Assembly: GCA_019261985.1 (NCBI GenBank)
Contig: JAFAQY010000134.1
Coordinates: 1 to 37,319, forward strand
DNA: 37,319 bases
From: Bryobacterales bacterium
GTDB taxonomy: Bacteria; Acidobacteriota; Terriglobia; Bryobacterales; Bryobacteraceae
Direction of reading: 5' to 3'
A program made the position numbers and the translations under genes. This document shows, piece by piece, positions 13,774 through 33,412 of the stretch; position 1 is the stretch's first letter; every line of letters starts with the position of its first letter. The notes below the pieces were generated by a model. It did no database searches. It worked only from the letters and a program-made list of their open reading frames with translations, and was not told the DNA's origin.

Positions 13774-14709
13774 TCATTGCGGATAGTAGCCGTCGCGCGT
13801 GCGAACAACCAACCCTTCGCGCAGAGTGGTCACCTTCACCCGCCGGTATTTTCCATCAATAGTCGAAGCGTCCGGTGTATATCGTATGCTGTATTGGTTG
13901 CGTAGCTCGTTTTCAATCTGCGTATAGATGCTGTCGATCGGCTGCGCTTGGGAAACTCTAAAATACGCCCCGCCAGTCTCGCGAGCCAGCCGCTCCATTA
14001 TTCGCGGACCGCGGTTTTGCCTCGGTCCGATCGCGACGTTAATGCCTCTTCCCCCGCGCGGCCCGAAACGGCTGTACAAAACCGAATAAATCAGCGTGTC
14101 GGCGCGTTGAGCGTATTCGATGGCGGTTCCAATGGAGGTGTCGTCCCGAAAGTCCAGCCCGTCGGACAACAGAATAACTGCCTTGCGTCCCACCCGGTTC
14201 TTCATGAGCGTTTCCGACGCGTCCCGGATCGATTCGTACAACAGCGTTCCTACCTGGCCCCGGGGAGGAATTCGAAGCCCATCCAGCGCGGACGCAAGCT
14301 TTTCCCGGGACGAAGTGAAATCCTGCAAGATCCCCACAGCGACATCGAAGTGGACGACGGCGGCAAGGTCGCGATCTTCGCGCAGGATCTGTTGAAGGAA
14401 GCGGTTGCTGGCCGCGCGCTCCGGCCCAAACACGGGACGCATGCTCTGGCTGGTATCCACCAGGAGCGCCAGCACAAGCGGAAGGTCCGACTCTTTCGAA
14501 AAATAACGGATGTTCTGCCGCCGCCCGTCTTCTTCCAGCCGAAAGTCGTCCTTCGAAAGGTCATTTACGATTGCGCCGGTGGATTTGTCGCGTACCGTCG
14601 CGAGCAGCGTAACCACACGCACATCCGATCGGTAAGACGGAGGGTCGCTTTGCGCGTACACGCAGGATGTTAGCGCCAAGCCGGCAATCAGCGCACGCCT
14701 GGAAAGCAT
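13774..14709 (-). CDS. VWFA-related acidobacterial domain protein
   Basis: 311 aa with a signal peptide (cleavage near VYAQ, residue 20). An N-terminal beta domain carries the family phrase VNDLSKDDFRLEEDGRRQNI. A von Willebrand A domain follows with a complete MIDAS start, DTSQS (D85, S87, S89). A short C-terminal beta segment ends RVKVTTLREGLVVRTRDGYY. This is the TIGR03436 architecture. The A domain should bind a metal-dependent protein ligand outside the cytoplasm. The ATG overlaps the stop of the DUF1501 gene (TGATG), so it is co-translated with the DUF1800-DUF1501 pair and may recognise their substrate or partner. Confidence 0.92.
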   Translation of the reverse strand: MLSRRALIAGLALTSCVYAQSDPPSYRSDVRVVTLLATVRDKSTGAIVNDLSKDDFRLEEDGRRQNIRYFSKESDLPLVLALLVDTSQSMRPVFGPERAASNRFLQQILREDRDLAAVVHFDVAVGILQDFTSSREKLASALDGLRIPPRGQVGTLLYESIRDASETLMKNRVGRKAVILLSDGLDFRDDTSIGTAIEYAQRADTLIYSVLYSRFGPRGGRGINVAIGPRQNRGPRIMERLARETGGAYFRVSQAQPIDSIYTQIENELRNQYSIRYTPDASTIDGKYRRVKVTTLREGLVVRTRDGYYPQ

Positions 14710-15950
14710 CAGGCGGATACAAGGCCGCGGAATTTCGGCTGATCGTAGCCGGGGAACACATCGACAATGCGCGGATTACCGAGGTGGCGGACTACCAACT
14801 CACTGAGCACATCGCGGAAATCGGTGGTGACATCCAGATCGCGCTCTTCGTAAAGCTGCTCGCGTTCCAGTCCAGGCCATTCGCCGTAGACTTTGCCGCC
14901 CTTGATGCCACCGCCGAACGCGAACATCACGTTCGCGTGGCCATGATCGGTGCCGCGCGCTCCGTTTTCCTTCGCGGTGCGGCCGAACTCGCTCATGGTC
15001 ACAACGGTCACATTCGCCATCCGATCGCCCAGGTCGGTATGGAAAGCCGCCAGGGCTTGCCCGAACTGCGCCAGTAGATTCGCAAGCTGTCCTACCGCGG
15101 GCTTCGCGCCGACTTCATTAACGTGATGATCCCATCCGCGAACATCCGTGAACGCGATCTCCAGCCCGATATCGGCTTTAATCAGCCGGGCGATTTGCAT
15201 CATTTCCTGCCCGAGTTTGCCTTCGGGATAGCGCGCGCCATTCGCCGGCGAGTACGGACGTTTTTGAATGGACTGCATTAGTTTCACCGCTTCGAAGGTC
15301 TCGCGGCCGGTGCCGTTTAGAACCTTGTCGTGCGTGCCCTCGTACATCTTCTCGAACGCCGCCGCGCCGGCCGCATTCCGCACTTGAAAACTATCCACGC
15401 TTGCCAACGCGATCGCGTCATTCGGCCCGCGCAGCGCCCGCGGCATCTCATCGCCGATGGCGACCGCCCTGACGCCGGAGCGCCGCGTCTCTTGTTTAAG
15501 CGCGCGGTTCAGCCAGCCATCGCTCGTCGACTTCGCGCCCGGCGTGCCGGATTCCATATAATCCTGCGCATCGAAGTGCGAGCGCGTCGGATCGGGCGAA
15601 CCGGCCGCGTGAACAATCGCAAGGTGTCCGGCATCGTAGATGGGCTTCAGTGCCTGCAATGACGGATGCAAACCAAAGAAACCGTCGAGATCTATGGCCG
15701 AATCGGGCGTTCCGTCCGGGCGGGGAATCGCGAGATTCGGTCGCAGATCGTAGTACGCCGCCTCGCCATGCGGGATCACGACGTTCAGTCCGTCCATCGC
15801 GCCGCGCTGGAAAATAGCGACCAGAATCTTCTTCCGGGGACTCCGCGCGTCGTTCGCGTAGAGCGTTCGCGAAAGCCAGGACGGACTCGATCCGATACCG
15901 ACCATTGCCAGGGCGGAGCTCTTCAGAAATATGCGGCGATTAGTTTCCAT
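14709..15950 (-). CDS. DUF1501 protein with Tat signal
   Basis: 413 aa from the ATG at 15950; the frame is open further upstream, but only this start gives a proper twin-arginine signal (TNRRIFLKSSALAM). The body has the sulfatase/phosphatase-like DUF1501 landmarks: QRGAMDGLNVVIPHGE, HFDAQDYMESGTP, RGWDHHVN, MSEFGRTAKENG and GTDHGHANVMFAFGGG. Asp/His positions in the last two resemble the metal site of alkaline-phosphatase superfamily members. The folded protein is exported by Tat, probably with a metal cofactor. It starts two bases after the DUF1800 stop. DUF1501 and DUF1800 pairs are common in Planctomycetes and Acidobacteria; their joint substrate is unknown. Confidence 0.93.
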   Translation of the reverse strand: METNRRIFLKSSALAMVGIGSSPSWLSRTLYANDARSPRKKILVAIFQRGAMDGLNVVIPHGEAAYYDLRPNLAIPRPDGTPDSAIDLDGFFGLHPSLQALKPIYDAGHLAIVHAAGSPDPTRSHFDAQDYMESGTPGAKSTSDGWLNRALKQETRRSGVRAVAIGDEMPRALRGPNDAIALASVDSFQVRNAAGAAAFEKMYEGTHDKVLNGTGRETFEAVKLMQSIQKRPYSPANGARYPEGKLGQEMMQIARLIKADIGLEIAFTDVRGWDHHVNEVGAKPAVGQLANLLAQFGQALAAFHTDLGDRMANVTVVTMSEFGRTAKENGARGTDHGHANVMFAFGGGIKGGKVYGEWPGLEREQLYEERDLDVTTDFRDVLSELVVRHLGNPRIVDVFPGYDQPKFRGLVSA

Positions 15951-15952
15951 AT

Positions 15953-17377
15953 CTACTTTCTTTGAAAATCGGGCGAGCCGAGAATCAACCCGATCAGGTC
16001 GGCCTTCGGCGGCGCTGGTTTTTTCTGAATAGAGTGCAGCGTCTGAGCGGAGGCATCGGCAAATAAAATCTGTTTCGCGGCCGCGGCCGGATCGTTCGAG
16101 AAACGGCTCGAATCCATCAACACGCCTTGTACATGGTTGCCGGCCAACTGAATCGCAAAATTCATTCGCGCCAGTAAAGCCGTTGAGCTGACCCACTCCG
16201 CATTGGCGCTTGAATAGCCGGTCGGCTCGATCTTGCGGTAGAGTGCCTCGCCGAGAACGCCGGTTTGATTTACCAGCCCCGCTTCGGATTCGACGCGCGC
16301 GCCGGTAGCGCGGGCCGCGCTGACGACGAGTTCTAGCGGCGTTTTGACTTTGGCGCGGTAAGCGCCTTGGGAGAAAAACTCGCGCGAGCCGAACATTGTC
16401 GCCAGAACCGCGCGGATATCGCCGCCGGTCGCCTGAAATGTTTGTGCCATGCGCGCGATCAGCGCCGGCGGCGGATCGTCCGCGACAAAACGTTCAGCCA
16501 GCTTCTTCGAAATGAACTTCGCGGTTGAAGGATGCCGGGCGAGAATATCGAGCACCGTCTCGCCATCGTCCATTCCGCCCCCGGCCGGAATCGTCACGCC
16601 GAGCACGATTTTTTCCGCCTTATCGTGTGTGCGCGCGTCGAAGCGGAACGTGCCTCCGCTATCTTGATTCGGCCGGTCGATAGTCCAGCCGGTGAAGCAG
16701 CGGGCGACTTCGATAATGTCGTGTTGTGTGTAGCCGCCATCCACCCCGAGCGTGTGCAATTCCATCAGCTCGCGCGCGTAGTTTTCGTTCAGGCCGCGCG
16801 TCGGACGCTTGGCGTTCGCTCGCCCGGTCTGCTCAGGGGCGACGCTCTGCCAGTTGTCGAGATAGAACAGCATCGCCGGGCTATGCGCGGTGGCGCCGAG
16901 CAGGTCGCGGAATTTGCCCAGTGCGTTCGGGCGAATCGCGTCGCGCTCATAAGCCGGCACTAGCCGCCGGTCCGCGCCTTTCGTCATATCGACGTTGAAA
17001 TGGTTGTACCAGAAATCCACCAGAACTTCTTCCAACTGGCGGTTGCTGTAAACAGCACGGTAAATCTTATCTTGCGCGTATTGCGCGGGCTGGACCTGCG
17101 CTGAGTTGCCGGCGGGAGATGGGCGAACGTCCAGCTGCGGCCGCTGGGCGATCCTCTCGGGGTGCAATTGCAGATCGATCCACTTCTCCAGTCCCATCTT
17201 CTTCACTGCGGCGATATCACCCGGACGCGGGCCGAACGTCAGCCGGTTGAGCGCATGCAGAATAGACTGGTCCTTCGAGAGCTTCTTTTCAAATTGACTG
17301 TAATCCGCACCCGGAGTCTTGATGTTTCCGGCCGGTAGACTGGCGGCCATACAAAACAGCGCCGCGAATTTCCACAT
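15953..17377 (-). CDS. DUF1800 secreted protein
   Basis: 474 aa with a signal peptide (MWKFAALFCMAASLPAG). The DUF1800 signature is complete: ALNRLTFGPRPGDIAAVKKMG, VDFWYNHFNVDMTKG, NENYARELMELHTLGVDGGY, VARCFTGWTI, and the C-terminal WVSSTALLARMNFA. The start is supported by GAGG about 8 bases upstream. It leads the DUF1800 > DUF1501 > VWFA unit, with a two-base gap to the next ATG, and lies 57 bases behind the LolA-like gene. Its molecular role is unknown; the invariant pairing with DUF1501 suggests a shared extracytoplasmic process. Confidence 0.93.
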   Translation of the reverse strand: MWKFAALFCMAASLPAGNIKTPGADYSQFEKKLSKDQSILHALNRLTFGPRPGDIAAVKKMGLEKWIDLQLHPERIAQRPQLDVRPSPAGNSAQVQPAQYAQDKIYRAVYSNRQLEEVLVDFWYNHFNVDMTKGADRRLVPAYERDAIRPNALGKFRDLLGATAHSPAMLFYLDNWQSVAPEQTGRANAKRPTRGLNENYARELMELHTLGVDGGYTQHDIIEVARCFTGWTIDRPNQDSGGTFRFDARTHDKAEKIVLGVTIPAGGGMDDGETVLDILARHPSTAKFISKKLAERFVADDPPPALIARMAQTFQATGGDIRAVLATMFGSREFFSQGAYRAKVKTPLELVVSAARATGARVESEAGLVNQTGVLGEALYRKIEPTGYSSANAEWVSSTALLARMNFAIQLAGNHVQGVLMDSSRFSNDPAAAAKQILFADASAQTLHSIQKKPAPPKADLIGLILGSPDFQRK

Positions 17378-18711: not shown

Positions 18712-19308
18712 CTAAACATGCCGGCCCACCAATGCGAGAAACTCATCCCGCGTAGCCTTACTCGCGCGAAAAGCGCCGAGCATCGTGCTCGTGATCGTCC
18801 CCGAGTGCTGCTTCTCGACCCCGCGCATCATCATGCAGAAATGGCGAGCTTCAGCCATAACGCCAACGCCGCGGGGGGAAATAGCCGATTCTACGGCCTC
18901 CGCCACCTGCTGAGTCAGGCGCTCCTGCAACTGCATTCGCCGCGCATACATATTTACGATGCGGGGGATTTTGCTCAACCCGATGACCTTGTCCTTGGGC
19001 AAATAAGCGACGTGAATCTTTCCGAAAAACGGCAGCAGGTGATGTTCGCACATGCTGAAGAATTCGATGTCCTTCACGATCACCATCTCATCGCACTTCA
19101 CCGAAAATATCGCGCCGTTGACGATCTGCTCCAGGCTCTCTTCATAGCCGCGCGTCAGGAACTGCATGGCTTTTTCCCAGCGTTCCGGCGTGTGCCGGAG
19201 TCCTTCGCGCTGCGGATCCTCGCCTAACATGCGCAAAACGTCCCGGATATGCGAGGCTACAGACGGCCCCTGCGGCTGCAATACCTTGACTACCGCGTCA
19301 TTCTTCAA
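18712..19308 (-). CDS. folE: GTP cyclohydrolase I
   Basis: 198 aa, normal length. The zinc ligands are present as C87 and H90 in [14 protein letters not shown] and C158 in RHFCMMM. The catalytic His in CEHH and the substrate segment [15 protein letters not shown] are intact, as is HSGTITST near the C-terminus. It converts GTP to 7,8-dihydroneopterin triphosphate in the cytoplasm, the shared precursor of folate, tetrahydrobiopterin and 7-deazapurines. Its ATG overlaps the stop of the first PTPS paralogue (ATGA), placing it third in a pterin operon. The two upstream enzymes would use its product. Confidence 0.97.
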
Positions 19309-19715
19309 TTCCTGCCGACCTCCAGGTCAAACGCATTCCGATCGGTTTCCGAGATGCGCAAATGCGCCAGGCGCGCCGGCAGGTCCCAACCATCGAGCAG
19401 AAGATCGCGCACCAGGGACGCTAAATTCTCAGTGGTCGGGACCACGTGCGCAAACTCGGGCAGATCCTGATTCAGATTACGGTACTCCACGCGCGCAAGC
19501 GCATGCCGCCGCACCAGGCCGTCCAGAGCCGCTCGATCTACTAGCCGGCCGTCCGCGTTTACCGGGCCTTCCACAGTAACGTCGAGGATGTAATCGTGGC
19601 CGTGGCCGAAGGGATTGGCGCACTTGCCGTAAAGCCGGCGATTTTCTTCTTCGCTCAGCGCCGGCGTATGCAGCCGGTGCGACGCCGCGAACCGGTAACG
19701 GCGGGTAAGCCGCAT
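19305..19715 (-). CDS. 6-pyruvoyl-tetrahydropterin synthase / QueD family, paralogue 1 (Cys kept, Asp-His lost)
   Basis: 136 aa, full length. The zinc ligands are H13 (AASHRLH), H38 and H40 (FGHGHDY). The nucleophilic Cys is present, C32 in YGKCANP. The motif PTTEN and the C-terminal Glu (SET, E123) are present. The usual catalytic Asp-His pair (DHxxLN) is replaced by E77-Y78 (VEYRNLN). The family converts dihydroneopterin triphosphate to 6-pyruvoyl- or 6-carboxy-tetrahydropterin. It lies between paralogue 2 (one-base gap) and folE (ATGA overlap). The missing Asp-His suggests it is not a self-sufficient synthase; see findings. Confidence 0.93.
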
Positions 19716-19716
19716 G

Positions 19717-20127
19717 CTATTCGTCTCCTATGTCGACGTACAGATCCGCTGTCTCATACAGCCGCACATTGCGGAGCTTTGCGGTTTTGCCCCGAAGCCG
19801 CGGTTCCAGCCGCCTGCGGATCTCAACAGCGATGTTTTCCGTCGTCGGAATCACGCGATCGAATGGAGGCACTTCACGATTCAGAAACCGGTGATCCATC
19901 GGCTCCACCACCTCTTGATTCAGGATCTGCTTCAGCTCTCGCAAATCGAAGACCATGCCCGTGACCGGGTCCGGCTCGCCCTCCACCGTCACTTCGAGCA
20001 CGTAATTGTGCCCGTGTCCATTAGGATTCGCATCGGGCCCGTAGACTTTGCGGTTCTCCTCCAAACTCCAGGCAGGATTAGCGCAGACATGCGAGGCGGA
20101 GAATTCCGCCTTTCGGGTAATGAACAT
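19717..20127 (-). CDS. 6-pyruvoyl-tetrahydropterin synthase / QueD family, paralogue 2 (Asp-His kept, Cys lost)
   Basis: 136 aa, the same length as its neighbour and alignable without gaps through the first 48 residues. The zinc ligands H13, H38 and H40 (PNGHGHNY) are intact. D78-H79 in PMDHRFLN are the canonical catalytic pair. PTTEN and the Glu in YET (E125) are present. The nucleophilic Cys position is Asp (D32 in YGPDANP). It is the first gene of the operon. Alternatives are a PTPS-III-like enzyme, where the Cys is replaced by Glu and folate-type products are made, or one half of a composite enzyme with paralogue 1. C15 (ASHVC) is not at the catalytic position. Confidence 0.93.
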   Translation of the reverse strand: MFITRKAEFSASHVCANPAWSLEENRKVYGPDANPNGHGHNYVLEVTVEGEPDPVTGMVFDLRELKQILNQEVVEPMDHRFLNREVPPFDRVIPTTENIAVEIRRRLEPRLRGKTAKLRNVRLYETADLYVDIGDE

Positions 20128-24659: not shown

Positions 24660-24751
24660 GTCGGAAAGCCGGATGCGGGAAATCGGCACGTCCGGTTTCA
24701 TGAGAAGGGAGGGGAAACGGGCCTCGGTTCCGCGCCTCTCCTCGACTCTAT
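24660..24751 (+). mobile_element. 5'-truncated group II intron remnant (domains V and VI)
   Basis: Bases 24666-24698 have the domain V layout. An eight-pair stem, AAGCCGGA with TCCGGTTT, contains the G.U pair of the AGC triad. A two-base CG bulge follows, then an upper stem capped by GAAA. The next segment (about 24701-24751) folds as domain VI, GGAGGGG pairing with CCTCTCC. It ends CTCGACTCTAT, with an unpaired A seven bases from the end, as expected for a branch point and an AY-type 3' splice site. No reverse-transcriptase gene is present, and one upper-stem pair of domain V is disrupted. The 5' limit is uncertain; related sequence may begin near 24586. Read as protein it continues in frame into the receptor gene, which is an artefact. 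Confidence 0.75.
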
Positions 24752-24769
24752 CCGCTCGAAACTTGCCCC

Positions 24770-24799
24770 TTGACTTTGAAGCTGGATCCTGTCTAAATA
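24770..24799 (+). promoter_or_regulatory. promoter of the Oar-like receptor gene
   Basis: TTGACT (24770-24775) and TAAATA (24794-24799) are separated by 18 bases, about 54 bases before the ATG at 24853. It begins 19 bases after the predicted end of the intron remnant, so the insertion sits immediately upstream of this promoter. Confidence 0.6.
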
Positions 24800-24852
24800 G
24801 TTTGACTGCAAAACAAACTGCGCGTTGGCATGCAGTCTCTTTGGGGGGTCAG

Positions 24853-27800
24853 ATGAAAATATCTAACATTTTGTTGAAATTCGCGGTCGCGTTCACATCG
24901 ATCGCGCTTGCATACAATAGCGCCCAGGCGCAGGTGCTATACGGATCGCTTACAGGAAATGTGATGGATCCCAGTTCCGCGGCGATTCCGAATGCCAAGG
25001 TGGAAGCCACCAATACGGACACTGGCGCGACCCGCGCCGCCGTCACCGACTCGGCCGGGCTTTTTCTCTTTTCCAATCTTCAACCCGGTACTTACAAACT
25101 CACCGTGGCGGCCACTGGTTTTCAAACCACCACGGAAGAGAATATTGGCGTGGAGGCCAATCAGGTCCGGCGAGCCGATTTTCAAGTGCAGCTCGCGCAG
25201 GCGACGCAAACGGTGGAAGTCAACGCCGCCGCTGTCGCCTTACAAACCGATCGCGCTGACGTCAATACCACCCTGGAACGAGCGCAAATCGCGAATCTGC
25301 CGATTACCTCATCCGCGGGACGAAACTTCCAGGCCCTTTATAAGCTGGTTCCGGGATTCAGCCTTGTCACGGAGTCCAACAGCTCGGATGGCGGAAATCC
25401 ACAGCGGTCCATGGCCGGGTTCGTGAACGGAACCTCCCGTCAAAACAGCCTTACGCGAATTGACGGTACTTCAAACACGTATATGTGGCTGCCGTCGAAT
25501 ACCGCCTATGTGCCGCCTGCGGAGTCGATTGAATCTGTGAATATCGTCACGAATGCATTCGATGCCGAGCAAGGCAACGCCATGGGCGCGGCTGTGAACG
25601 TTGTGACGAAGTCGGGAACGAACGATTTTCATGGAGGCGCGTTCGAATACCACACCGACAACGCGCTGAAGGCCTTGAACCGCTTCAATCCGGCTGGATT
25701 CCGAAAGCCGAAATACATCATGAACCAATACGGCGGAAGCGTCGGCGGCCCGATCAAGAAAAATAAGCTGTTCTTCTTTGCGGATTGGGAGGCGACCAAG
25801 CGCCGCACGCTCGCAAGCAAAACCGCGACCGTGCCCAATCCCGCCGGAATCTTCGATGCAGCCGGCAATGCCGACCTTTCCGCGGCGATACCGGCCGGAA
25901 CTAACTGTAATGCGGCGCCGGTCGCCGGCTGTATTTTCGATCCGAATACCGGCAATGCCGATGGGTCGGGCCGCCAAGCCTTTCCAGGCAACATCATCCC
26001 GGCTAGCCGCATCGATCCAGTTGCCAAAATCATGCTGAGCCGCATTAACCCGGCGGGCTTTCTGAATAAAGACGGTGTAAACGCCAATAACAACTACAAT
26101 TCCACCGGCTCGGCCAAAATGGATCGCAATACCGTAGACACCAAGGTTAATTACAACCCGAACCAGCGGATGACGGTGTTCGGCCGGTACAGCATTTCCC
26201 CCACTACATTCTTCGATCCGCCGTTATTGGGCCAGGCCATGGGCGGCGCTACGGGCGGAGGCCAGGTGGGCACGGCGCCTTCGCGTATCCAGAATATCGG
26301 CCTCGGCAGCAACTTCGTCATCACTCCGAATTGGGTTGCGGATGTTAACGGCGGATATACGCGCCAGCGGCTGGGAGCGACGTATGCGCCTGATCTCGAT
26401 TTGGGTAATTACGGGCTTACCGGACTTCATATTCCGGGCACCAATGGCGATACCTACTTAGCCCAGGGCACGCCGGGTTTCAACTTCACGCAGACCGGAG
26501 CCGTGGTGGGCACCTGGAACGGAATCGGAAATGTCGATACGGGCAACCCATTTCTTTTTCGCGATAACCAGTACGTGGCGAACGCGAATATGAGCTGGAC
26601 CAAAGGCCGCCACAACGTCCGTTATGGAATCGGTTTCACGGATAACGGCCTGAATCATTTTCAGCCGCAGGGCGGGACCTTCCAGAGTCCACGCGGCGCG
26701 TTTCGCTTCACCGGTAACGTTACGGCGCTGCTGGGAGGGCCGGCCGGGGCCAAGGCGAACTCCCTCGCGGATTTCCTGTTGGGTCTTCCGAACGAAGTCG
26801 GCAAGGCGGTTCAGAATTCGAACCCGAATTCGCTGCGCTGGAGGACTTGGTCGTGGTATGTGCGGGACAGCTGGCAGGTGACCTCGAAACTAACTGTGAA
26901 TTATGGTCTGCGCTGGGAATTTTATCCAATGGCGACCACCGACCACGGTGGAGTGAAGCTCTTCGATCCCTCTACAGGCAACGTGCTTATTGGGGGAAAC
27001 GGTAATGTCCCTCTCGACGATGGCGTGAACGTGGGCCACGGAATGTGGCTTCCTCGAATCGGTCTGGCGTACCGGCTGGACGAGAAGACCGTAATCCGCA
27101 CCGGCTATGGCATCAGCTCGGACAGCAACAACTGGCGCTTTTTCCGCAATAACTATCCCGCCACGACCAATTCGGACACGTTGGGCGCGACGAACTTTCA
27201 GCCTGCCGCGAGTCTGACGGGCGAAACGCTCAATCCGTATCCGGGGCTGCCCGCGGGAATTCCGTTGGTATCGATTCCCGACATCAGCTCAGGCTCGATC
27301 CCTACTCCTAACGGCGTACAGCCCGGCAACACCGTGCCCTTTAATTTCCGCCGCGGCTACATCCATTCATACAACCTTGTGGTGCAGCGGGAAATCGGCA
27401 AAGCCGTCGCCGAAGTTGGCTATGTAGGCAACCGTGGCGTCCGCTTGTTGACGAATGAAAATATCAATTACGCGCCCGTTAACGGCGGTAATGCCGGTCG
27501 CGTGTTGTTTCCCGTCGCTAACAAAAATTGGGGCGACGTGAACAGCCTTGTCCCCGATGGGCCAAGCTGGTACAACTCGCTCCAAACCAAGCTCTCATGG
27601 AGGTGGCGCGGGAACACCGCATTCGGCGTCGTATATACCTTCTCCCGCGCTATCAACTGGACCGATAACGAAGAAGAGGCGACCGTCTTCGGCGGCCAGG
27701 GCGGCTATCTGTTCTGGACCTCCCCGAATCTGCGCAATCGCAACAAGGCTCTGGCGAGTTATGATCGAACCCATAACTTCTCCACCTATGGCAGTTACGA

Positions 27801-28383
27801 TTTGCCTTTCGGCAAGACTCAACGGTGGGCGAAAAGCGGAGTGGCGAATGCAATCCTGGGAGGATGGCAGACGAACTGGGTGCTCAGTTATCTGAGCGGC
27901 AGTCCCTTTTCGATTATCGGCGGAGGAGCTCAGGTGAATTCGCCCGGCAACGTGCAGACGGCCGATCAAGTTGGTCCGCTGAACATCCTTGGCGGTATCG
28001 GCCCGGCGCCGGTGACCGGAGCAAATCCAGTTTGCCAGCCGGCGGACCTTTCGTGTCATTACTTCGACCCATCCGCGTTCGCGCCGGTCCCCGGTGATCA
28101 GATCCGTTTCGGCAATACCGGGCGTAATATCGTGCGCGGGCCCGGTCTGTTCAACCTGGATGCCAGCGTCTTCCGTAATTTCAAAATGACGGAGCGCGTA
28201 AATCTACAAATCCGGGCAGAAATGTTCGGCGTAACCAACACTCCGCACTACAACAACCCGGGGACCGACCCGACGAATCCGGCCCAGTTCGGCGTGATCA
28301 CGCAAACGCTGAATACGGCGGGACGAGGCACGGGAACCGGCGGCGAGCGGCAGACGTGGTTCTCTGCCCGGGTATCGTTTTAA
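24853..28383 (+). CDS. Oar-like TonB-dependent receptor with carboxypeptidase-regulatory domain
   Basis: 1176 aa from the ATG at 24853, chosen for its GGGGGG ribosome-binding site and true signal peptide (MKISNILLKFAVAF..., cleavage near SAQAQ). Residues 30-118 are a carboxypeptidase-regulatory-like beta sandwich (GSLTGNVMDPSSAAIPNAKV, LFLFSNLQPGTYKLTVAATG). A plug domain follows (about 130-260: ERAQIANLPITSSAGRNFQA, NAMGAAVNVVTKSGTNDFHG). A long outer-membrane beta-barrel (about 270-1176) ends with a terminal aromatic (WFSARVSF). The family is large in Acidobacteria and Myxococcus (Oar) and is thought to import or export bulky substrates using TonB. The substrate is unknown. A 13-bp inverted repeat follows 11 bases after the stop. 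Confidence 0.94.
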   Translation: MKISNILLKFAVAFTSIALAYNSAQAQVLYGSLTGNVMDPSSAAIPNAKVEATNTDTGATRAAVTDSAGLFLFSNLQPGTYKLTVAATGFQTTTEENIGVEANQVRRADFQVQLAQATQTVEVNAAAVALQTDRADVNTTLERAQIANLPITSSAGRNFQALYKLVPGFSLVTESNSSDGGNPQRSMAGFVNGTSRQNSLTRIDGTSNTYMWLPSNTAYVPPAESIESVNIVTNAFDAEQGNAMGAAVNVVTKSGTNDFHGGAFEYHTDNALKALNRFNPAGFRKPKYIMNQYGGSVGGPIKKNKLFFFADWEATKRRTLASKTATVPNPAGIFDAAGNADLSAAIPAGTNCNAAPVAGCIFDPNTGNADGSGRQAFPGNIIPASRIDPVAKIMLSRINPAGFLNKDGVNANNNYNSTGSAKMDRNTVDTKVNYNPNQRMTVFGRYSISPTTFFDPPLLGQAMGGATGGGQVGTAPSRIQNIGLGSNFVITPNWVADVNGGYTRQRLGATYAPDLDLGNYGLTGLHIPGTNGDTYLAQGTPGFNFTQTGAVVGTWNGIGNVDTGNPFLFRDNQYVANANMSWTKGRHNVRYGIGFTDNGLNHFQPQGGTFQSPRGAFRFTGNVTALLGGPAGAKANSLADFLLGLPNEVGKAVQNSNPNSLRWRTWSWYVRDSWQVTSKLTVNYGLRWEFYPMATTDHGGVKLFDPSTGNVLIGGNGNVPLDDGVNVGHGMWLPRIGLAYRLDEKTVIRTGYGISSDSNNWRFFRNNYPATTNSDTLGATNFQPAASLTGETLNPYPGLPAGIPLVSIPDISSGSIPTPNGVQPGNTVPFNFRRGYIHSYNLVVQREIGKAVAEVGYVGNRGVRLLTNENINYAPVNGGNAGRVLFPVANKNWGDVNSLVPDGPSWYNSLQTKLSWRWRGNTAFGVVYTFSRAINWTDNEEEATVFGGQGGYLFWTSPNLRNRNKALASYDRTHNFSTYGSYDLPFGKTQRWAKSGVANAILGGWQTNWVLSYLSGSPFSIIGGGAQVNSPGNVQTADQVGPLNILGGIGPAPVTGANPVCQPADLSCHYFDPSAFAPVPGDQIRFGNTGRNIVRGPGLFNLDASVFRNFKMTERVNLQIRAEMFGVTNTPHYNNPGTDPTNPAQFGVITQTLNTAGRGTGTGGERQTWFSARVSF

Positions 28384-31630: not shown

Positions 31631-33412
31631 TTAGTTTTCCGAGGGCTTCTCTATGTGATCGATAACCAGCGTTTCCACCGGTCCTCTTCCCGCCTCGAGT
31701 CTGAGGCCGAGTTCTTCCTGCAGTGCGACGAATATCGAGGGAGGGTCTGTTGGGTCAGAGGCGGGACGCGGGTCAGAAGCGGGAGGCGGACCAATCAGCC
31801 GGACATAATCGGCCGCCAGCGTCGTTCCCTCTCGCGCGAACTTGATGCGAATATCGAACCGTCCGGTGATTCCGGTCTTGTCGATCACTGGACGGCCCAC
31901 TACCGTGCCGAGCGTCTTGGAAAATTCGTCGAGAGTCGCGCCTAGAGCTTCCACCGAGGAAGATATGAGGCTGATGATATTCGCGCAATATCGTGTGCCC
32001 GGCTCACGGGGCGGTGGCGGGACGGCCCAAGGCGTGCAGCTTCCTTCCCCGAACGGGTGTAGCTTTGGCCCACCGCGGGCGACGGTTAGGAAATAGACAG
32101 GGCCGTCCCTCGTTTCACGATGGATCTTCAGATGAAAACGATCTTCCAGGAGCCTCTGCAGCATCGGGCCCAGCATCATCGGAACGCTCGGATTTCCTTC
32201 CGCCGTTGCTTTGATCTCATAGGCGGCGGAACGGAGCCAGGACGGACCTCCCGTGATCGGAGCCCGTTCGCTATTGCGATTGAGACGGCCGTCAGCGTAC
32301 GTGGTATAGGCATTCCCAATGAGATTGAGCAACCCATGGCAATCCTCGACAAGCCTTCCAGGTGATGACTTGGGGGAAGGTCCATTGTTAGCCTCCTTAC
32401 AGGGCTTGATCGAGGCAACTTCGAATCTCGGCGTGTCCGCGGGAGGGCTTTGAGCGCGGATCACAGGCGCGGTCATCACGCCGATCAGGATAGGCGTCGC
32501 CAGCGCCGCCAGGCCAGCTAGTGCGAGAGCCGCCTTTCGCGCGCCGCTCAGCTCCGCGGCGATGGTTCCTGCGAGGATCGAGCGGAGGCGCCTTTTCACA
32601 TCGGCGCCCGTCACTCCGGACACGCATGGCAGCGGCGATTCCGTGTAAAAGCGGCAGACCTTCAAAATCCCCTCTACATACTCGGAGGGCTCGCAGCCGG
32701 TTCGCAGGACTTCTTCATCACAGGCAAGCTCGCGTTCCTCGAGCAAGCGAGATCCTACCCACCACACCAGCGGATGAAACCAGAAGATTGCTTCCACCGC
32801 CATATGTACGGCTGCGAAGAGATTGTCTCGGCGGCGCGCGTGGCAAAGTTCATGCGTGAGGATGGCGCCAAGCTGTCGAGGGTTCAGGTGCTCCAAGAGT
32901 TGCGCCGGCAGAACTAAAACCGGGCTCAAGAAACCAACGACACCCGGTTCCTCCGCGCCGGGCGTGATGACGGCCCGTACGGGAATCAGGAGTTCGACGG
33001 GCGTGCCGGCGCGGAGAGCTGCTCGAACCTTCAACCAACCGCGGCATCGCGCCAGTGTGATTGCAAGAACGCCGAGTGCCCACACAATGGAAATTGCGAT
33101 CGGCATCCAATGCATCGGGTTGTGTGCCTGAACAGCCGGACGGGGAGCCGGCGAAAACGGCTCCGCGATTTGTGCGAGCGTCGCCGGGAAAATAGGATCG
33201 GCAGCTGCCGCCGAGTGTGCAGTTGGCAGCGGGACCTGGTTGCCGAAGCTCACAAGTAACGCGAACGGGATCAGAAATTTTAGCGACGCGCTGAGCCAAA
33301 CCCAATAACGTATCTTTGGCGAATGGCGGCGAAGCGCGAATGCCAGCAAGGCCGCGAGGAATACGAACCAGGACGACTGCCACAGATGGTTCACGATGAA
33401 CGCAGTGCTCAT
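31631..33412 (-). CDS. BlaR1-like M56 metallopeptidase fused to a TIGR03435-type domain
   Basis: 593 aa. The N-terminal 330 residues form a BlaR1/MecR1-type M56 module. It has several membrane helices (about 12-27, 38-57, 102-122, 300-325), a zinc site H187-E188-x-x-H191 in ILTHELCHARRRD, and the downstream ERELACDEEVL. After the last helix, residues 335-590 match the soil-associated TIGR03435 pattern: PRFEVASIKPCKEAN, LLEDRFHLKIHRETRDGPVY, VIDKTGITGRFDIRI and VETLVIDHIEKP. In BlaR1 this position holds the extracytoplasmic sensor, so the TIGR03435 part may be the sensor here. The signal would activate the peptidase to cut BlaI. It overlaps blaI by ATGA. Confidence 0.92.
   Translation of the reverse strand: MSTAFIVNHLWQSSWFVFLAALLAFALRRHSPKIRYWVWLSASLKFLIPFALLVSFGNQVPLPTAHSAAAADPIFPATLAQIAEPFSPAPRPAVQAHNPMHWMPIAISIVWALGVLAITLARCRGWLKVRAALRAGTPVELLIPVRAVITPGAEEPGVVGFLSPVLVLPAQLLEHLNPRQLGAILTHELCHARRRDNLFAAVHMAVEAIFWFHPLVWWVGSRLLEERELACDEEVLRTGCEPSEYVEGILKVCRFYTESPLPCVSGVTGADVKRRLRSILAGTIAAELSGARKAALALAGLAALATPILIGVMTAPVIRAQSPPADTPRFEVASIKPCKEANNGPSPKSSPGRLVEDCHGLLNLIGNAYTTYADGRLNRNSERAPITGGPSWLRSAAYEIKATAEGNPSVPMMLGPMLQRLLEDRFHLKIHRETRDGPVYFLTVARGGPKLHPFGEGSCTPWAVPPPPREPGTRYCANIISLISSSVEALGATLDEFSKTLGTVVGRPVIDKTGITGRFDIRIKFAREGTTLAADYVRLIGPPPASDPRPASDPTDPPSIFVALQEELGLRLEAGRGPVETLVIDHIEKPSEN

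Follow-up and report, generated by a model that had tools for sequence, protein, structure and literature searches.

Two neighbouring PTPS paralogues as probable halves of one pterin synthase, with similar divisions of the active site in other bacteria

Two adjacent genes of the PTPS family, here called P1 and P2, probably encode the two chains of one 6-pyruvoyl-tetrahydropterin synthase, a hetero-oligomer in which each working active site would be a composite of both proteins. The catalytic residues are split between the two chains, the split recurs in other lineages, the genes are linked and fused versions exist; all of this is observed directly in the genomes. More broadly, PTPS is probably an enzyme in which the division of a shared active site between duplicated chains has recurred, arising independently at least twice and becoming locked, with steps of the process still alive in present lineages. 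If this is true, it offers a clean and testable example of mutual dependence arising between duplicated chains in a symmetric enzyme, and its intermediates survive in related bacteria. It is also a warning that motif-based annotation of individual PTPS genes breaks down here: neither gene alone resembles a working synthase, yet both are kept family-wide.

The window, meaning the whole 37,319-nucleotide stretch of DNA that was analysed, carries on its minus strand an operon with the gene order P2-P1-folE. P2 (19717-20127) is the first gene and encodes a PTPS-fold protein of 136 aa; P1 (19305-19715), whose start is separated from the P2 stop by 1 base, encodes a PTPS-II-type protein of 136 aa; and folE (18712-19308), which has a TTG start overlapping the P1 stop by 4 nt, encodes GTP cyclohydrolase I. 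The open reading frames of the two adjacent paralogues described in the earlier sequence-only reading were confirmed, and both proteins match the Pfam PTPS profile PF01242 over its whole length (P1 78.5 bits, P2 117.2 bits, cut-off 22.4). Both fall below the cut-off of 89.25 for the NCBIfam QueD (PTPS-I) profile (39.7 and 66.0 bits, respectively), and the PTPS-I motif CxxxHGH is absent from both. The subfamily motif definitions that we used (CxxxHGH, ExxHGH and CExxHGH) are those given in PMC5041015. Elsewhere in the window, overlapping DUF1501 and DUF1800 genes lie in tandem (14709-17377, minus strand) with a VWA-domain gene adjoining them (13774-14709), a BlaR1-type M56 peptidase domain is fused to DUF3738 (31631-33412, minus strand), and a large outer-membrane beta-barrel protein (24673-28383, plus strand) has a carboxypeptidase-regulatory-like domain and a TonB plug match below its cut-off.

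Residue-by-residue alignment of P1 and P2 with human and rat PTPS, with solved structures as the reference, spans nearly the full length of the proteins. The catalytic Cys of the mammalian enzymes aligns with C32 of P1 (codon 19622-19620, minus strand here and below) and with D32 of P2 (gat, 20034-20032). Their Asp-His pair aligns with E77-Y78 of P1 (gag and tac, 19487-19482, Y78 being 19484-19482) and with D78-H79 of P2 (gat and cac, 19896-19891); the codons of D32, D78 and H79 in P2 and of E77 and Y78 in P1 were checked by eye. The three zinc-binding His residues and the C-terminal Glu are present in both proteins. Alignment and codons together thus uphold what had been read from the letters alone, namely a reciprocal pattern in which P1 keeps Cys but has E77-Y78 while P2 keeps Asp-His but has D32, and alignment to the solved enzymes does the same for the zinc ligands and the Glu. 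C32 of P1 lies in the PTPS-II motif CxxxxxHGH, here CANPFGHGH; PTPS-II enzymes also have Asp-His in the same chain as the Cys, and it is this pair that window P1 has replaced.

The two genes are tightly linked in the window's taxonomic family (f1), of which 150 genomes were searched with P1. Some PTPS match was found in 146 and a P1 gene in 142, the other four matching genomes holding merely weaker paralogues or a piece. Eight genomes have no full P1: one (G018) has a cut operon and seven have neither gene, six of these carrying only other PTPS paralogues and one none. We examined the P1 locus in all 142 P1-bearing genomes, and P2 adjoins P1 in 141 of them; in the remaining one the contig ends inside P2. 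The order P2-P1-folE was found at 127 of 133 loci, three of these being overlapping pieces of the window, and at all of a further 10 (L134-L143). Of the six deviating loci, three run into a contig end, one has its folE frame split, one is an odd assembly and one is the genome's third paralogue. P1 is in pieces in two genomes, G020 and G073, perhaps through assembly.

Residues were counted over 141 P1-P2 pairs, leaving out L127, whose P2 is cut by the contig end; for Asp-His in P1 the sample is 139, leaving out G020 and G073, which are broken at that point. The catalytic Cys is present in 141/141 P1 proteins and in 0/140 P2 proteins with a letter at that position, so that P2 lacks the PTPS-II motif throughout. 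What stands there instead is variable (A 82, E 23, S 13, D 11, G 8, N 3, one gap), and such freedom argues that no new catalytic residue has appeared at this position. Asp-His is kept by P2 in 141/141; in P1 it is intact in 68/139 and changed in 71, the changed proteins showing 26 different forms, with 26 lacking both residues and 45 retaining one of the two. All three zinc His are found in 141/141 P1 and 139/140 P2 proteins, and the C-terminal Glu of P2 is E in 139 and D in 2. All 71 changed P1 proteins nevertheless retain Cys, the three His and R14, the Arg after the first zinc His (alignment column 13), and the C-terminal Glu is present in all 70 that have a letter there. Changed P1 proteins therefore stay under constraint as a catalytic half. 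Pseudogene decay of P1 is ruled out by the same retention.

These counts qualify the earlier picture of complementary loss in both paralogues. The split is real, but the loss of Cys from P2 is family-wide, and the exact loss seen in window P1 is confined to the window's genome: in the four other genomes of the genus that were examined (L005-L008) P1 has an intact Asp-His. Because 68/139 P1 proteins have the full set and many of the changed ones keep one residue of the pair, the heteromer need not be obligate everywhere, and about half of the P1 proteins in the family could, judging by their residues, still work alone.

The two residue sets also differ in their rates of change. On a P1 tree built without the Asp-His columns, the pair has changed at least 29 times, whereas the P2 tree shows no change; had P2 changed as often per unit of tree length as P1, approximately 16 changes would be expected (Poisson P of about 1e-7, a rough figure). 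P1 is the faster protein overall, with a tree length of 57.0 against 31.5 and a median column entropy of 1.51 against 0.94. By column entropies, constraint peculiar to P1 falls on K and C within the GKC loop and on the Arg that follows the first zinc His, and constraint peculiar to P2 falls on D, H and the next R. Given that P2 is more conserved overall and that the biggest differences in constraint between P1 and P2 fall outside the catalytic columns, we take this entropy split as supporting evidence only.

A search of the phylum with P2 covered 396 genomes, of which 271 gave a match, and the loci were then fetched. Several arrangements were found among its families. In f18 both copies are complete (4/4). 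In f2, which belongs to the window's class, the first copy is complete in all 27 cases read and the second has Asp-His in 18 of them, so a gene pair need not mean a split. The f15 genomes have one fused chain adjoining folE, and the five whole ones read all show the split, domain 1 lacking Cys and Glu and domain 2 having Cys and Glu but lacking Asp-His; a sixth (G513) is truncated where its contig stops. The single f8 case is a fusion beside folE with the same split. Two Pfam PTPS stretches are found in the f15 and f8 chains and three in those of f77, where Cys and complete zinc ligands occur in the last domain only and Asp-His in the first two (2/2). The three-domain chains of f77 type are L194 (G521:C190) and L258 (G503:C8), with open frames of 431 and 529 aa. 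The one f54 case, adjacent genes with a similar split, is weaker, its Cys chain having the QueD-like CxxxHGH spacing, and in f39 one copy is complete and the other dead.

In f35, f67 and f79 each half has a gene of its own and the two genes lie on different contigs (G325, G204, G247, G340 and G426), and the Cys chain lacks Asp-His in all five genomes that have both. The expectation that the two genes would always be neighbours is accordingly borne out in the window's family and not universally outside it. All five of the Asp-His chains read from these families keep Asp-His and have lost one or two of the zinc His, and their Glu is replaced in four and not alignable in one; lacking full zinc ligands or Glu, they can, on sequence grounds, hardly be enzymes alone. 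In a further f35 genome (G496, given as 96% complete) we found a Cys chain with Asp-Cys (L228, G496:C12) and no Cys-less partner; the gene lies 283 bp from a contig end. The partner is present on a different contig in the other three f35 genomes read (G325, G204 and G247).

In the phylum of a Poribacteria genome the fusion was matched in 76 of 84 genomes, three of these weakly, and 51 fusions were read (50 in one frame; that of G570, L405, in two). The N-domain has Cys in 0/51 and Asp-His in 51/51, and the C-domain has Cys in 51/51 and Asp-His in 12/51, with at least four changes, the split being clear in 39 of the 51 proteins. In three Poribacteria genomes that were searched with the whole family, the fused gene was the sole PTPS found. 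The predicted fold of one of these fusions (pLDDT 90.9, pTM 0.87) supports a model in which the domains lie side by side, as in uricase. Uricase itself is a ring of four, and extending this to two-domain PTPS chains is a guess. Beside a normal fusion, locus L409 (G579:C1) carries a second, diverged double PTPS-like gene whose second half has Cys and lacks Asp-His; this locus was left out of the Poribacteria set.

A scan of named genomes, taken as the best 80 loci of at least 588 matching stretches, revealed 25/25 complete lone genes in Ignavibacteria, Nitrospina, Dictyobacter and others, and a fully equipped first gene in 44/44 unfused pairs. Among the same best 80 loci, all eight fusions of Firmicutes, Armatimonadetes and Eisenbacteria have a complete domain 2 and a domain 1 that lacks Asp-His or both Asp-His and Cys. 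The fused double PTPS proteins of Paenibacillus, Bacillus, Metabacillus and Domibacillus (L291, L309, L312 and L324) have kept the Cys of domain 1 and lost the His of its Asp-His; in the Armatimonadetes and Eisenbacteria fusions L303, L308 and L322, domain 1 has neither Cys nor an intact Asp-His.

Taken together, 288/288 units of two or three domains (adjacent pairs, fusions and the five unlinked pairs, the named-genome part being the best 80 loci of at least 588 stretches) retain at least one Cys and at least one Asp-His. Strict complementarity, in which Cys and Asp-His never share a domain, is seen in 124 of these, and the other 164 have one domain that holds both. Among genes alone at their locus, 44/45 hold both; for the 25 named ones, flanks of 2.5 kb on each side were covered. 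The counts are not independent, as they include close kin, some species perhaps twice, and loci chosen by similarity. Once a partner had been found elsewhere in the same genome, ten genes of f35, f67 and f79 that stand alone were treated as five units, which makes the 45 'alone' genes a post hoc selection, and L257 (a piece in G513 consisting of the C-domain, 18 bp from the end of its contig) was left out of both units and singles.

The trees rest on 129 columns and many of their forks are open. In the phylum tree, built without the rat PTPS row, the P2 proteins of f1 and f2 form one clade (99/94) and their P1 proteins cluster along with one long f54 row (94/84), while the Cys chains of f35, f67 and f79 sit among complete single genes. 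In a wider tree, the first genes or N-domains of Poribacteria, Firmicutes, Armatimonadetes and the window's class cluster (99/94), and a second group (99/86) takes in most second genes or C-domains together with some other rows. These groupings point to one old tandem duplication followed by lineage-specific losses as the likely history of many of these units, and to a likely separate origin of the division in f35, f67 and f79. We propose that one-sided losses after a tandem duplication would have left the two copies dependent on each other. The stages may be represented in living lineages: from both copies complete (f18) to a second copy losing Asp-His (f2) and a first copy without Cys (the window's family and Poribacteria), with an Asp-His copy that also lacks full zinc ligands or Glu (f35, f67 and f79), fusion of the two halves (f15, f8 and Poribacteria) and a chain of one Cys domain and two Asp-His domains (f77) as further steps. 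An obligate heteromer fixed by duplication and complementary loss, as first suggested, is supported by the linkage, the fusions and the unlinked pairs with the same split; the part that did not stand is its symmetry, in that P2 lacks Cys throughout the family while P1 has lost Asp-His many times, and the pairing need not be obligate in every genome.

How would two such chains make one enzyme? Nar et al. 1994 are reported to assign Cys42 and Glu133 to a single chain and His89 to one belonging to the other trimer. More generally, PTPS is described as a dimer of trimers in which several chains contribute to each site (PMC7546909). In a mixed assembly the zinc site would come from P1, together with the catalytic Cys and the Glu that anchors the pterin, and the Asp-His pair from P2. 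Since the site is shared between chains, a P1 site facing P2 would be complete and a P2 site facing P1 dead, and roughly half of the possible sites would work. We infer this assembly, the number of active sites and the reaction from the residues and their context. FolE, from the same operon, would make the PTPS substrate, and the product of the pair is likely to be 6-pyruvoyl-tetrahydropterin, given the PTPS-II motif of P1 and the presence in the genome of a gene for a biopterin-dependent hydroxylase homologue (G000:C11). Such homologues occur in 40/101 family genomes, the window's included, so the pair cannot serve the hydroxylase alone everywhere, and another use of the product is likely in genomes that lack it.

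The composite-site hetero-oligomer is, in our view, the best reading of these sequences, as it also covers the fusions and the loss of zinc ligands from some Asp-His chains. It is unlikely that P1 and P2 are instead two separate enzymes of one pathway, P1 needing Cys without Asp-His and P2 Asp-His without Cys, which are neighbours through that pathway alone. P2 could have some activity of its own, having kept the zinc His (139/140) and mostly the Glu in the window's family, and other paralogues within the PTPS family have diverged to catalyse different reactions (PMC5041015). This idea sits poorly, however, with the f15 fusions (5/5) and four of the five f35, f67 and f79 pairs, in which the Glu of the Asp-His domain or chain is replaced, and with those five chains and f77, in which zinc His are lost and Asp-His is still kept. 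Nor does the variable residue at the Cys position of P2 look like a new catalytic one, and the Asp-His of P1 drifts through its 26 forms while the P1 Cys is invariant. We think it quite improbable, too, that P2 is a dead partner of prozyme type that stabilises or allosterically activates a P1 using its own substitute acid-base residues. Dead paralogues that activate a partner are known, for example in trypanosomatid deoxyhypusine synthase (PMC3663545), and 45/71 changed P1 proteins retain one of Asp and His; but no single substitute residue emerges in P1, and a mere scaffold would not keep Asp-His in 141/141. The main alternative in the sequence-only reading, that P2 is a PTPS-III-like folate enzyme replacing FolB, was rejected as highly improbable: no FolB match was found in the window's genome and FolB is above its cut-off in merely 12/101 family genomes, but P2 lacks the ExxHGH motif (PNGHGH in the window), the position of its Glu being Pro in 122/139 family P2 proteins and Glu in 2/139, and the genome has a better candidate for the folate step. 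This is its third PTPS paralogue, L001 (G000:C74:1843-2208), which reads CENVHGH; CExxHGH is the form described for PTPS-I/III in PMC5041015, and from its sequence L001 would be a better FolB replacement than the P1-P2 pair.

No heteromeric or split PTPS was found among the papers listed from the open-licence literature of PubMed Central, which is weak evidence of absence. The nearest solved relatives of P1 and P2 by sequence are the mammalian PTPS enzymes (PTPS-II; PDB 1b66 and 3i2b), which have the same zinc His, Cys, Asp-His and Glu positions as P1 and P2 taken together. Their active site is shared between chains, as we propose for P1 and P2, but the mammalian enzyme is a hexamer of identical chains, whereas in the window the triad is divided between two paralogues. 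QueD/PTPS-I and PTPS-III belong to the same protein family (PF01242), but both CxxxHGH and ExxHGH are missing from P1 and P2. Among tunnelling-fold enzymes of tandem build, uricase, GTP cyclohydrolase IB and bimodular QueF catalyse other reactions at about 7% identity and are not PTPS. Finally, trypanosomatid deoxyhypusine synthase is likewise a duplicated enzyme, and it works as a complex in which an impaired chain is paired with a dead one; it is unrelated to PTPS, and PMC3663545 describes its mechanism as allosteric activation.
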